A DNA stretch of 54,678 nt from the NCBI GenBank assembly GCA_019637975.1, contig JAHBUR010000025.1, positions 1 through 54,678 on the forward strand, given 5' to 3'. This stretch comes from Bacteroidota bacterium. Lineage in GTDB: Bacteria > Bacteroidota > Ignavibacteria > UBA10030 > UBA6906. A program made the position numbers and the translations under genes. The notes beneath the pieces were generated by a model. The model was not told where the DNA came from, did not search any database, and saw only the letters and a list, made by a program, of their open reading frames with translations. The stretch's first letter is position 1, and every line of letters begins with the position of its first letter. Shown piece after piece: positions 50,691 to 54,564 of this stretch.

Positions 50691-50718
50691 GTAGGGGCGA
50701 CGCTCCGGTCGCCCCTAC
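50691..50718. repeat. 28-bp palindrome, repeat family B
   Basis: GTAGGGGCGAC, loop GCTCCG, then GTCGCCCCTAC: an 11-bp perfect stem. It lies at the junction of two convergent genes, 16 nt after the propeller gene, and includes the stop codon of the thioredoxin-like gene on the other strand. It could serve as a bidirectional terminator, although no T run is present. Confidence 0.85.
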
Positions 50719-51104
50719 AGCATCTGTTTCCGCAGCTCGCTTTCCATTTTGACTCCCAGAAGCACCCGCCGGATAACTCCTTCGCTCACAATCACCGTTG
50801 TGGGTGTAGCCATCACTCCAAATGCACTGGCCGTCGGCTTGTCTTTGGAAATATCTACCTTGAATATATTCGGCAGTTCCATCCTGAGTCTGTCAATAGT
50901 AGGGGTAAGCTTCTTGCATTGACTGCATGTCGGACTGAAAAAGTATGCCAACACTTTTTCGCCTCGTGCTATCGCTTCTCCGAGCGGGCCCGTGATGCCT
51001 TCAATCCTCTTTCCTGTATTGCGTTTTGATTTCCAGAGGGCATAGAGTTGCACAGCGAGGAGCAACAACAAGAGAGTAGTGAGTATGGCGAATATGCCGG
51101 TCAT
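50715..51104 (-). CDS. Membrane-anchored thioredoxin-like protein
   Basis: A 129-residue protein with one N-terminal membrane helix (residues 4-22) and a thioredoxin fold. The active site is FFSPTCSQCKKLTP (C-x2-C) and the cis-Pro loop is MATPTTVIV. Probably faces the periplasm or the cytoplasm depending on helix orientation; the Lys/Arg after the helix (KSKRNTGKR) suggests the catalytic domain stays in the cytoplasm. It is the last of five overlapping small genes and overlaps the DUF6132 gene by 4 nt. Its stop codon lies inside the family B palindrome. Confidence 0.85.
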   Translation of the reverse strand: MTGIFAILTTLLLLLLAVQLYALWKSKRNTGKRIEGITGPLGEAIARGEKVLAYFFSPTCSQCKKLTPTIDRLRMELPNIFKVDISKDKPTASAFGVMATPTTVIVSEGVIRRVLLGVKMESELRKQML

Positions 51105-51301
51105 GCCGACGGCTTTTCAGAGTCTCTGGGTTTGGAAGACCAGCCGGCCACCGCACCGATCAATGCGCCGTATCCCGTGCTGATGTACGGGTTGGAAGTA
51201 ATCGGGCAGGAGCCGCCGAGACACCCAATGTAGTAGTAGTACGCGTACCCGCCGATGGCGCCGAGAAGCGCGACGAGTGTACGTTTCAGCCAAATGTTCA
51301 T
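51101..51301 (-). CDS. DUF6132 family small membrane protein
   Basis: A 66-residue protein with two hydrophobic segments flanking GCLGGSCPITSNPYISTGYG, the hallmark of DUF6132 proteins of Bacteroidota. Two cysteines in G-C-x4-C-P could take part in thiol chemistry. Function is unknown. It overlaps both neighbours by 4 nt (ATGA on each side), so its expression is tied to DUF1858 and thioredoxin. Confidence 0.83.
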   Translation of the reverse strand: MNIWLKRTLVALLGAIGGYAYYYYIGCLGGSCPITSNPYISTGYGALIGAVAGWSSKPRDSEKPSA

Positions 51302-51519
51302 GCCATTTCCTTTTCAACAAGTTCTCTGTTCATCTCATAAACGAGGGCATCGAGAGCTTCGCTTGTCCACCCTTTATCAAGCGCAAGTTCCTCCAACGTA
51401 CCCCATGTCGGCTCGCCGCAAACCAGACAGGGGAGATTCCGGCTGATGAGAAACTTCACCGATCCGGGAAACAGGTCGATGAGCTCTTCAATGCTGATCG
51501 TTCGTTCTATGCGAGTCAC
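51298..51519 (-). CDS. DUF1858-type small cysteine protein
   Basis: A 73-residue protein matching DUF1858: TISIEELIDLFPGSVKFLI followed by CLVCGEPTWGTLEELALDKG. The C-x2-C-G motif is retained. DUF1858 proteins occur alone or with redox and hybrid-cluster genes; the function is not settled. I chose GTG 51519 because GGAG lies 8 nt upstream and it minimises overlap (32 nt) with the preceding gene; ATG 51549 is an alternative. Confidence 0.75.
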   Translation of the reverse strand: MTRIERTISIEELIDLFPGSVKFLISRNLPCLVCGEPTWGTLEELALDKGWTSEALDALVYEMNRELVEKEMA

Positions 51520-51745
51520 GTTCTTCTCCGAACATACGACGGATGACATCTCCAATATACGCCCTCGTTGCCTGCATAACGAGGGCGCTCGAACACTCTT
51601 GTTCAAATCTGCTGCACAGTGTCTCGCCCACTTTCCGTGCGTCGGCCTCCGAGGTGGATGTTCTCAGCATCGTTTCTGCCTCGGCACAATACTGTTTGAG
51701 CAGTTCTTGCTGGGGGTCGGGCGGTTTATGAACAAGGGTTCCCAT
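51488..51745 (-). CDS. Small protein of unknown function
   Basis: An 85-residue helical protein without signal peptide or membrane segment. It has two cysteines (KQYCAEAE, LCSRFEQEC region adds two more) and reads as three helices (PQQELLKQYCAEAETML, ARKVGETLCSRFEQECSSAL, TRAYIGDVIRRMFG). I do not recognise a family. It lies 14 nt downstream of the DUF2892 gene and overlaps the DUF1858 gene, so it belongs to the same operon. Confidence 0.6.
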   Translation of the reverse strand: MGTLVHKPPDPQQELLKQYCAEAETMLRTSTSEADARKVGETLCSRFEQECSSALVMQATRAYIGDVIRRMFGEERDSHRTNDQH

Positions 51746-51759
51746 CGCTTAGCCTTATT

Positions 51760-51966
51760 CTACTTGCTCTTCGTGGTTGTAGAGAGCTTGAACGGCATGT
51801 ACAACGGGCAGAAGCCGATGGCGCTTGTCGCCAGAAGAATAATCGCCAAGATGCCAAGTACAACGCCGAGCGTGCCGCTGATGGTTCCATTCAAAAGAAG
51901 GAATCCGAGTATGAGAGCCGCAACAACACGTAGGATGCGGTCAGTTGTTCCCATGTTCTTTTGCAT
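51760..51966 (-). CDS. DUF2892 family (YgaP transmembrane-like) protein
   Basis: A 68-residue membrane protein with two helices. MQKNMGTTDRILRVVAALIL and the C-terminal GFCPLYMPF are the family marks. The same domain is the C-terminal membrane part of the E. coli rhodanese YgaP and often accompanies sulfur-handling proteins. It is the first gene of the five-gene module after a 93-nt gap from the anti-sigma gene; the gap holds a small CCGGC-AAAC-GCCGG hairpin (51996-52009). Confidence 0.85.
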   Translation of the reverse strand: MQKNMGTTDRILRVVAALILGFLLLNGTISGTLGVVLGILAIILLATSAIGFCPLYMPFKLSTTTKSK

Positions 51967-52059
51967 GATTTGTTACTCCAATCTGGTGGTGAGATCCGGC
52001 AAACGCCGGGTGAATTCTGCGGATAAGATGACGAGGGCTCGCCGAAAGGGTCAAGAAAT

Positions 52060-52332
52060 CTATGACTTACGGCCTCTTCCCGCTCCAGGTTTGCCGTGTG
52101 CGGCCTCGAGAATAGCAAGGTCGATAACCTTATGCAATTTCCGGTGTGTTTTGAGCGGGATAGACGGACCTTCCTGTTTCTTGTAGAGAAGGATAGTCTT
52201 CTTCAGAGAATCGAGATATGCAGTACAATTCGGGCAGGAGTCGAGATGTTTTTTGATCGCCCGGCATTTCGGGCTGTTCATGTCCGCATCCAGATTCAGA
52301 CAAATGTACTGGTACACTCCTTTGCATTTCAT
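52060..52332 (-). CDS. Soluble zinc-finger anti-sigma-like protein
   Basis: A 90-residue protein without a membrane segment. CRAIKKHLDSCPNC contains H-x3-C-x2-C (His29, Cys33, Cys36), the core of zinc-binding anti-sigma factors such as RsrA; Cys3, Cys11 and Cys23 are additional candidate ligands. It starts 1 nt after the sigma-factor stop, the classic sigma/anti-sigma arrangement. The absence of a membrane helix points to sensing a cytoplasmic signal, for example disulfide stress. The tail is basic (HGKPGAGRGRKS). Confidence 0.75.
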   Translation of the reverse strand: MKCKGVYQYICLNLDADMNSPKCRAIKKHLDSCPNCTAYLDSLKKTILLYKKQEGPSIPLKTHRKLHKVIDLAILEAAHGKPGAGRGRKS

Positions 52333-52333
52333 G

Positions 52334-52933
52334 TTACGTCTCCTCCGAAATCATATACGGGTTCAACCGGTCCCGCAGAAACGCCCGAGCTCTTCGCAGC
52401 CGTGATTTTGTCGCTTCAACCGAGATACCGAGAATCTTCGCCGTCTCCTCATTCGTATTTCCTTCCACATCTCTCAACACAAACACCACACGATAGTCGA
52501 CAGGGAGTTTAAGAATCGCATCGTCCAGCACGTCTTTCAATTCACGCTTTAGCAGTGTGTCGGCGGGCGTTTCTTCCCACCGGGGGGTGGTATGCCTGTG
52601 TGTCCCATCATCGGTTACCGGCGGATGGTCGTACGATTCAAGCACCGCATCCATCTTCCGGCGCCGTCGCTTCATCAAACAATGATTGGCCGTGATCCTG
52701 TACAACCATGTCGTCAGCTTCGAGCGTCCGTCGAAGGAGTCGAGGCTGCGATACATGCTGATAAAAGTATCCTGCAATGCTTCTTCCGCTTTTTCCTTAT
52801 CCCTGCACACTTTGTAGGAGAATCGGTACACTGTCTCTTCGTAGCGCTTGACGAGGGATGTAAACGCGGCCTTGTTTCCCCGTTTTGCCTCGAGTACAAG
52901 TTGAGCGTCTGATGCCGTCTGAACTGTTTTCAC
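52334..52933 (-). CDS. ECF-family RNA polymerase sigma factor
   Basis: A 199-residue sigma-70 group 4 factor. Region 2 includes ALVKRYE-like FTSLVKRYEETVYRFSYKVC, AEEALQDTFISMYRSLDSF and TWLYRITANHCLMKRRRRK. Region 4 is LPVDYRVVFVLRDVEGNTNE followed by ETAKILGISVEATKSRLRRA, with a clear helix-turn-helix. GTG at 52933 gives an N-terminus starting KTVQTASDAQLVLEAKRGN; ATG 52969 is an alternative adding 12 residues. The linker between regions 2 and 4 is long and charged (THRHTTPRWEETPADTL). Confidence 0.92.
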   Translation of the reverse strand: MKTVQTASDAQLVLEAKRGNKAAFTSLVKRYEETVYRFSYKVCRDKEKAEEALQDTFISMYRSLDSFDGRSKLTTWLYRITANHCLMKRRRRKMDAVLESYDHPPVTDDGTHRHTTPRWEETPADTLLKRELKDVLDDAILKLPVDYRVVFVLRDVEGNTNEETAKILGISVEATKSRLRRARAFLRDRLNPYMISEET

Positions 52934-53009
52934 TGATATGATGATGTGAAAAGTGAAAGGTGTCAGCATCAACCTACTAAAACTCCGTCTCGTCTGCAAC
53001 GTCGCTGCA

Positions 53010-53163: not shown

Positions 53164-54564
53164 ATGCGACTTGAGCAATTGATTGACAGACTTGCGAAAC
53201 ACAAAAGGCTGCAGGCCCTGCTTGCCGATACATCGCATTTGCCTGTGGACAATCTCGTTGATACGTTGGTGAGAGAATTCGAGTATGTCATCGACCGCTA
53301 CTCCTCCTGGAGTGAGTTTGCGGGGCAGGTACGCAGAATCGAATCGGAGAAGGTGAAGACTCCTTCCTTGTCATACAGCGTGGCGGAACGAGGTAGTACT
53401 CCGGCTACGTCCACGGGTGACCCGCAATTACTGCACATCAAGCCGATAAAGATCGAAGTTCCATCCATAGATGTGCATGAAGCAGCAAGAAAATTGGTTG
53501 CCAAACGTGAAGATGAGACACGGAAGAAGCACCTGCGCAAGCAATTGGATGAAGCGGAGCATCTCATCCAATCTGAAATCGAAAAGGAATGGGAGGCGAA
53601 ATCAGGCGACGTGCAAACGCGTGCGGAAGAATTCAAAACGGTACAGAAAGTCCTGCGCAAGCCGGTTGTGTTCCGTCCGCCTGCAGAAGCGAAGCCTCAA
53701 CAACCGGAAGTTGTAATGCCCTCCCCGCCGGATTTTTCGGACGAGGATTTGCTGTATCTCCACGGTGCAGCGTTGGCTGAAGAAACAACCGACACCGCGC
53801 GTATCGTACCGATCGATGCGATCCAAGGCATTGACGCGAGCGGGCCGATGTTTTCCTTCGATGTTCATGGCCTCAGGCTCTATGTGAGTAAACTGCAAAA
53901 AGAGGAACTCAGTGTCACCCGGTCGGGTATGCTTCTGCTGAATAAGGAGGGATCGCTTCACTATCGGGAAGAACATGAAGTTATAATCAACAGACTCCGG
54001 AACGAAGAGATGATTGTCCCCTTTGAGTTCGGGACGGTTGTGCGGGGAAAGGAAGATCTCCAGCGGAAAGCTGCTTCTCTGGCCTCCGCGTTGCGGCCCG
54101 GCATTTCCTCGGAAGGGAAATCGAGTACGTGGCTCGTCCGGTTGCGTGCTCACGATGCACGCGTCACCAAAGTGATTTCAGGGGTGGCTCCTGCGACAAA
54201 GGTTCAGGAGCGGGGGCGGGAGGAAAAACGGCCGTCAAAACGGTCGGATGTGAAGACGCTTGAAAAACTCCTTCAGCACGAGCGAACCGTAGCAGAGTCA
54301 ATTCATGCACTGCTAACAGGCGTGAGCCTCTCATCCGAGGTGTCGTTACTTGTCAACATCGGAAACGGTACCTCGGAAGATTGGAAGACAATACTTGAAG
54401 CGTCATATGAAATTCCGATCATCAACCGGTCGAAGTTTTTCTCGGATATCGTTGAATTGCAGAATGAGTACCGCAAGGCGGGTCTCATGTTCGAAGTCCA
54501 TGGCCCATCCGGACGCTTCAGCATGAGTTCAGAATCTGCGGTGACTCAGGCTGTTTCCGCTTGA
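53164..54564 (+). CDS. GvpL/GvpF-like domain protein with long N-terminal extension
   Basis: A 466-residue cytoplasmic-looking protein. Residues 1-60 are helical. Residues 115-190 form a charged coiled-coil-like stretch (RKLVAKREDETRKKHLRKQL). From about residue 215 to the end the pattern resembles the gas-vesicle proteins GvpL/GvpF: EEHEVIINRLRNEEMIVPFE then FGTVVRG, a WLVRLRAHD strand, HERTVAESIHALLTG, and the C-terminal block EASYEIPIINRSKFFSDIVE with GLMFEVHGPSGRFSM. GvpF/L proteins are minor gas-vesicle components or assembly factors. No gvpA or other gvp gene is visible, so the present role is uncertain. The ATG at 53164 is chosen with GAAGGAA upstream. It ends overlapping a convergent gene by 19 nt. 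Confidence 0.55.
   Translation: MRLEQLIDRLAKHKRLQALLADTSHLPVDNLVDTLVREFEYVIDRYSSWSEFAGQVRRIESEKVKTPSLSYSVAERGSTPATSTGDPQLLHIKPIKIEVPSIDVHEAARKLVAKREDETRKKHLRKQLDEAEHLIQSEIEKEWEAKSGDVQTRAEEFKTVQKVLRKPVVFRPPAEAKPQQPEVVMPSPPDFSDEDLLYLHGAALAEETTDTARIVPIDAIQGIDASGPMFSFDVHGLRLYVSKLQKEELSVTRSGMLLLNKEGSLHYREEHEVIINRLRNEEMIVPFEFGTVVRGKEDLQRKAASLASALRPGISSEGKSSTWLVRLRAHDARVTKVISGVAPATKVQERGREEKRPSKRSDVKTLEKLLQHERTVAESIHALLTGVSLSSEVSLLVNIGNGTSEDWKTILEASYEIPIINRSKFFSDIVELQNEYRKAGLMFEVHGPSGRFSMSSESAVTQAVSA

Follow-up and report, generated by a model that had tools for sequence, protein, structure and literature searches.

An ECF sigma factor and an RsrA-like zinc anti-sigma factor as probable governors of a thiol and sulfur stress regulon in Ignavibacteria-related Bacteroidota

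Redox-sensing pairs of sigma and anti-sigma factors are best known from Actinobacteria. The window analysed here, a stretch of 54,678 nucleotides from a 4.25-Mb Bacteroidota assembly that, among named relatives, stands closest to an uncultured Chlorobi bacterium (CHB1) and to Ignavibacteriae MAGs, carries an ECF sigma gene, a gene for a small anti-sigma-like protein directly behind it, and then five further small genes. The locus thus raises the question of whether the sigma factor controls the genes that follow it, and to what signal the pair may respond. The original prediction took the seven genes as a self-contained module that senses thiol oxidation or sulfur species. Our reading, to which we give a probability of roughly 0.7 on the basis of sequence comparison, is that the locus is the home of an ECF sigma/RsrA-like zinc anti-sigma pair which, in Bacteroidota related to Ignavibacteria, controls a regulon for thiol and sulfur stress, pointing to a stress response largely undescribed in this lineage.

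Gene layout and products of the locus

All seven predicted genes are present, all on the minus strand, and the 4-nt overlaps and the 93-nt gap before the DUF2892 gene were given rightly; the start of the sigma gene, and probably that of the DUF1858-like gene, need correction. With these two revised, the features are as follows.

52937-52965, minus strand: promoter-like site of the sigma gene, TGACACCTTT-N11-TCATCATA (two-block model score 15.3; own-genome pattern match)
52334-52933, minus strand: ECF sigma factor, 199 aa from GTG 52933 (Pfam and NCBIfam; closest solved structure SigW; start codon conserved)
52060-52332, minus strand: RsrA-like zinc anti-sigma, 90 aa (TIGR03988, zf-HC2, conservation, alignment to the RsiW and RsrA chains)
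52024-52053, minus strand: promoter-like site of the cassette, in the 93-nt gap, TGACCCTTTC-N12-TCATCTTA (held-out model score 14.2; own-genome pattern match)
51760-51966, minus strand: DUF2892/YgaP-like membrane protein, 68 aa (PF11127, 6e-21)
51488-51745, minus strand: apparently new family, 85 aa, three invariant cysteines, predicted three-helix bundle (alignment, model)
51298-51519, minus strand: DUF1858-like CxxC protein, 73 aa from GTG 51519 (TIGR03980 below cut-off, conservation, start)
51101-51301, minus strand: DUF6132-like small membrane protein, 66 aa (PF19628 below cut-off, conserved cysteines)
50715-51104, minus strand: membrane-anchored thioredoxin, 129 aa, CSQC (PF00085, 2.8e-12, CxxC conserved)

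The sigma factor carries regions 2 and 4 (Sigma70_r2, 3e-17; r4_2, 2.5e-15), and its best PDB match is SigW (5e-25), that to Mycobacterium tuberculosis SigH being weaker. The actinobacterial SigR/SigH (ECF12) type is not among its 25 best NCBIfam models, and no equivalog cut-off is reached.

Among the cassette products, the DUF2892 protein passes its family threshold clearly (74.7 bits against a gathering cut-off of 25.3), and it has a single conserved cysteine and no pair. The DUF1858-like protein, with its C-x2-C motif, scores below the cut-offs of both PF08984 (0.025; 15.1 against 32.2 bits) and TIGR03980 (1.4e-4; 21.8 against 44.95 bits), and the DUF6132-like protein does not reach the gathering cut-off of PF19628 (0.0013; 18.8 against 23.2 bits); both assignments rest on motifs conserved among relatives, namely the CxxC of the former and the cysteines of the latter. 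The 85-aa protein falls into no Pfam or NCBIfam family, a PDB profile search gave no relative, and the best Foldseek E was 0.83 for its structure model, a three-helix bundle with pLDDT 78.5. Its three cysteines are invariant in 18 sequences, and it was found in 5 of 395 genomes of the phylum, all five inside the order and none outside it; it is, as far as sequence and model go, a new order-restricted family. In most loci its gene is directly coupled to that of the DUF1858-like protein, which suggests that the two may be a carrier and its partner. The DUF1858-like gene probably starts at GTG 51519, which has a good ribosome site before it and gives a 32-nt overlap with the preceding gene, so that tight coupling extends through the whole five-gene cassette (gaps +14, -32, -4 and -4).

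Two features lie at the borders of the locus. A gene for a GvpL/GvpF-domain protein (53164-54564, plus strand) is divergent from the sigma gene; many relatives belonging to the same family also have it next to the sigma pair. A near-perfect inverted repeat, GTAGGGGCGAC-GCTCCG-GTCGCCCCTAC (50691-50718), lies between the convergent cassette and PQQ-repeat genes and is possibly a terminator or a dispersed repeat.

A shared promoter-like motif and the genes behind it

The prediction had proposed looking for a shared ECF promoter upstream of the sigma gene and in the 93-nt gap, and a promoter-like site, TGAAYCCTTT-N11/12-GCATCNNA, is found at both. A two-block model, trained solely on DNA upstream of 37 sigma genes and seeded with the motif spotted by eye in the same regions, finds it in 27 of the 37. 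In the fetched loci, 88 sites reach a score of at least 11, where shuffled sequence gave 2.0 per pass. Held-out matches precede 25 of the 31 DUF2892 genes that lead an operon; among control genes the figure is 10 of 646. A tight version of the motif was further scanned through 60 related genomes, a scan free of the bias from fetching loci via the tested families, and gave 127 matches against 1 for the reversed control. Genomes with the anti-sigma gene hold on average 2.6 sites and those without it 0.7 (p = 8e-6, for genomes that are related); the site is also kept in some genomes without a detected anti-sigma gene.

The motif also bears on where the sigma gene begins. The ATG implied by the upper coordinate of the prediction (52969) is upstream of the promoter-like site; because that site occupies 52937-52965 and the equivalent position is where the gene starts in relatives, the start is put at GTG 52933, 3 nt past the -10 element. 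In 25 of 29 listed sigma cases the first in-frame start codon is found 1-6 nt past the -10 block, mostly 3 nt, so the start codon coincides with the expected transcription start and the sigma message looks leaderless, whereas cassette genes mostly have leaders of tens of nucleotides. If the message is leaderless, sigma output would depend on leaderless translation. In one relative the sigma gene is apparently broken by frameshifts, its promoter-like site being intact.

The survey of relatives agrees with the co-occurrence that had been expected: the pair is met repeatedly in the order, and outside it too, with genes of these families behind it. It is present in Melioribacter and other Ignavibacteriales, with the anti-sigma gene in 45 of 60 relatives, and the set behind it changes among DUF2892, the three-cysteine protein, the DUF1858-like and DUF6132-like proteins, thioredoxin, a membrane rhodanese, OsmC and DUF302. 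In bacteria of other orders, too, OsmC, thioredoxin, DUF302 or rhodanese genes frequently come after the pair, and several of these loci carry the same promoter-like site. The exact set named in the prediction is not supported, the cassette being a variable pick from about nine families. The genes for the three-cysteine and DUF1858-like proteins are also found near octaheme cytochrome and YeeE/YedE sulfur-transport genes (two loci) and near molybdenum hydroxylases (three loci).

It could be argued that the cassette is a mere chance neighbour of the sigma pair with a regulation of its own, as parts of it occur elsewhere without the pair; one family of the order has a long version with no sigma gene nearby (three loci). 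This separation was one of the findings that the prediction had named as counting against itself. However, in stretches without a sigma gene the same promoter-like site stands before 8 of 9 operon-leading DUF2892 genes (p = 5e-13, where p-values overstate independence because loci were fetched through the tested families and the genomes are related), just as it stands in the 93-nt gap of the window, so the separated cassettes do not fall outside the presumed sigma regulon. Separate regulation is thus very improbable; a chance arrangement is ruled out by the recurrence in relatives together with the sites before DUF2892 leaders, and the sequence gives good support to the putative control of the cassette promoter by the neighbouring sigma factor.

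Searching the source genome by pattern gave five convincing sites. One precedes the sigma gene and one the DUF2892 cassette; the other three stand before a thioredoxin/Bax1-I operon, a gene encoding a DsbH-like thioredoxin and a gene of the DUF302 family, and these three have counterparts in a sister species, in which the cassette site scores 10.5, just under the threshold. Four looser matches in the source genome were set aside as noise: none leads a plausible operon, and one is inside an opposite-strand open reading frame. In this genome the sigma factor seems to have at least five operons under its control, and a self-contained module is not supported: the regulon is scattered and the cassette variable. 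In the relatives, the genes behind the motif are mainly those for the sigma factor, DUF2892 cassettes, thioredoxins, a thioredoxin-like/TrxB pair, TrxB and peroxiredoxin, and further those for rhodanese, CoA-disulfide/persulfide reductase (also together with rhodanese), OsmC, DUF302, FmdB zinc ribbons and multiheme cytochromes, together with one type III SQR-DUF1641-DsrC-DsrE2 operon (SQR, sulfide:quinone reductase). By our tally, the gene behind the site is a thiol, sulfur or sigma gene for about four fifths of 122 sites, and the other fifth, before genes without evident thiol or sulfur link or inside coding sequence, are noise or unexplained. Both the shared site and the genes of the regulon as a whole support the view that the sigma regulon would include the cassette and serve thiol and sulfur stress, a role that is likely.

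Two kinds of small protein were noted on the side. A protein of 114-119 aa with MVCCGRMGPMC, of no Pfam or NCBIfam family, is encoded behind a promoter-like site in six loci, in most of them before a thioredoxin-reductase-like gene. FmdB-type zinc ribbons with a cysteine-rich tail (CCGGxCG) recur in the regulon in eight loci.

The anti-sigma factor and the candidate signal

As had been predicted, a soluble anti-sigma-like protein with H-x3-C-x2-C is encoded 1 nt after the sigma stop; it has no membrane segment. It scores exactly at the cut-off of zf-HC2 and does not pass that of the RsrA model TIGR03988 (2e-7; 31 bits against 62.5), and the best PDB match of its profile is RsiW (5e-5). Its conserved residues are C3, C11, C23, H29, C33 and C36. 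Of these, C3, H29, C33 and C36 form a Cys-His-Cys-Cys (CHCC) zinc set at RsrA spacing, kept in nearly all relatives, and with C23 they match RsrA C11, C31, H37, C41 and C44. Nothing in RsrA corresponds to C11 of this family (conserved in 38 of 42), and C11 and C23 are thus two conserved cysteines beyond the CHCC set. In RsrA, zinc is held by C11/H37/C41/C44, and C11 forms the trigger disulfide (PMC4960319). The ligand set, conserved across relatives and aligned to the RsrA chain, is thus of the redox type, while redox sensing by the protein itself is an inferred property, because RsiW shows that a CHCC protein can be insensitive to oxidation (PMC5358783).

The likeness to RsiW, together with one copper-transport gene and one ArsM-like gene that carry the motif, would suit a different explanation, that the zinc site is structural and that the pair is switched by proteolysis, metal or a partner protein. 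We regard this as unlikely, for the anti-sigma protein has no membrane segment and has two further conserved cysteines, and the regulon is centred on thiols. Returning to a redox-switched pair, we infer that the inducing signal is thiol oxidation or sulfur species. The reduced, zinc-loaded anti-sigma would hold the sigma factor; oxidation or persulfidation of its cysteines would eject zinc and free the sigma factor, which would transcribe its own leaderless message and the cassette. At the membrane, the DUF2892 and DUF6132-like proteins and the anchored thioredoxin may then relay reducing power or sulfane sulfur, while the three-cysteine protein and its DUF1858-like CxxC partner may carry sulfur or disulfides in the cytoplasm, and the response would last until thiols are reduced again. 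In three loci a second anti-sigma gene, whose product keeps the zinc ligands and has neither C11 nor C23, is found inside a sigma-dependent cassette; such a copy could be a delayed, less oxidisable off-switch. Six other loci have two anti-sigma matches each.

A tentative proposal is that the pair is a dedicated sulfane-sulfur sensor, in which persulfidation via C11 and C23 frees the sigma factor to turn on a sulfur-relay and thioredoxin regulon with the three-cysteine carrier family as one output, and which would be the main thiol and sulfur stress system of Ignavibacteria, also present in other Bacteroidota. It is likewise possible, though we would not call it probable, that the system is a plain disulfide or oxidative stress response functionally equal to SigR-RsrA, in which sulfane sulfur is not the signal and sulfur genes take part only as users of thioredoxin or oxidised thiols. 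Thioredoxins, TrxB and peroxiredoxin are indeed the commonest regulon members besides the cassettes, and the ligand set is that of RsrA; but rhodanese, CoA-disulfide reductase with rhodanese, SQR-DsrC-DsrE2, DUF302 and the sulfur-transport neighbours exceed what such a response needs, and the two extra conserved cysteines also speak against it. If the signal is sulfane sulfur, the pair would be a sigma-based reactive-sulfur sensor, of which no report was found in the open-licence literature searched; nor did that literature, on ECF factors in connection with sulfane sulfur, persulfide, OsmC or rhodanese, describe the present system. A conserved pair, a readable promoter and a regulon give a testable function for DUF2892, DUF302, the DUF1858-like and DUF6132-like proteins and the new family.

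Comparison with known systems

Within Bacteroidota, the BmoR regulon of Bacteroides fragilis also gathers thiol/disulfide genes, among them a CoA-disulfide reductase-rhodanese-TusA-DsrE fusion and an exported thioredoxin, however under a MarR repressor instead of a sigma/anti-sigma pair (PMC6158253). EcfO of B. fragilis and SigR-1 of B. thetaiotaomicron are Bacteroidota ECF sigmas tied to oxidative stress (PMC12596196 and its references), as the sigma factor here is likely to be, and the literature found on them reports neither an RsrA-like partner nor the promoter and cassette described here. Anti-sigmas of class I are said to be rare beside Bacteroidetes sigmas, with Bacteroidetes ECF12 members lacking such a neighbour and just 6% of Bacteroidetes ECFs having one (PMC7406223). 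SigW-RsiW of Bacillus subtilis gives the best PDB matches for both proteins and shares the CHCC zinc set, but RsiW is a membrane protein that undergoes regulated proteolysis and does not respond to oxidation (PMC5358783), whereas the anti-sigma here is soluble and carries two more conserved cysteines.

The closest parallel is SigR-RsrA of Streptomyces (ECF12), or SigH-RshA of other Actinobacteria, with which the present pair shares an ECF sigma, a soluble CHCC zinc anti-sigma, a thioredoxin-system regulon and an autoregulated sigma gene, the last judged here from sequence. The differences are several. The sigma factor resembles SigW and a general sigma model more than it does the actinobacterial type; the anti-sigma has five residues at RsrA spacing and yet an extra conserved cysteine, C11; and the regulon here includes sulfur-handling genes. 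The SigR promoter consensus, GGAAT-N18/19-GTT, is not matched by the TGAAYCCTTT-N11/12-GCATC found here, and a leaderless-looking sigma message takes the place of the control described for sigR (PMC5472188). The system appears to work like SigR-RsrA, yet it is not filed as a member of it, because the cut-off of the RsrA model is not reached and the promoter differs.
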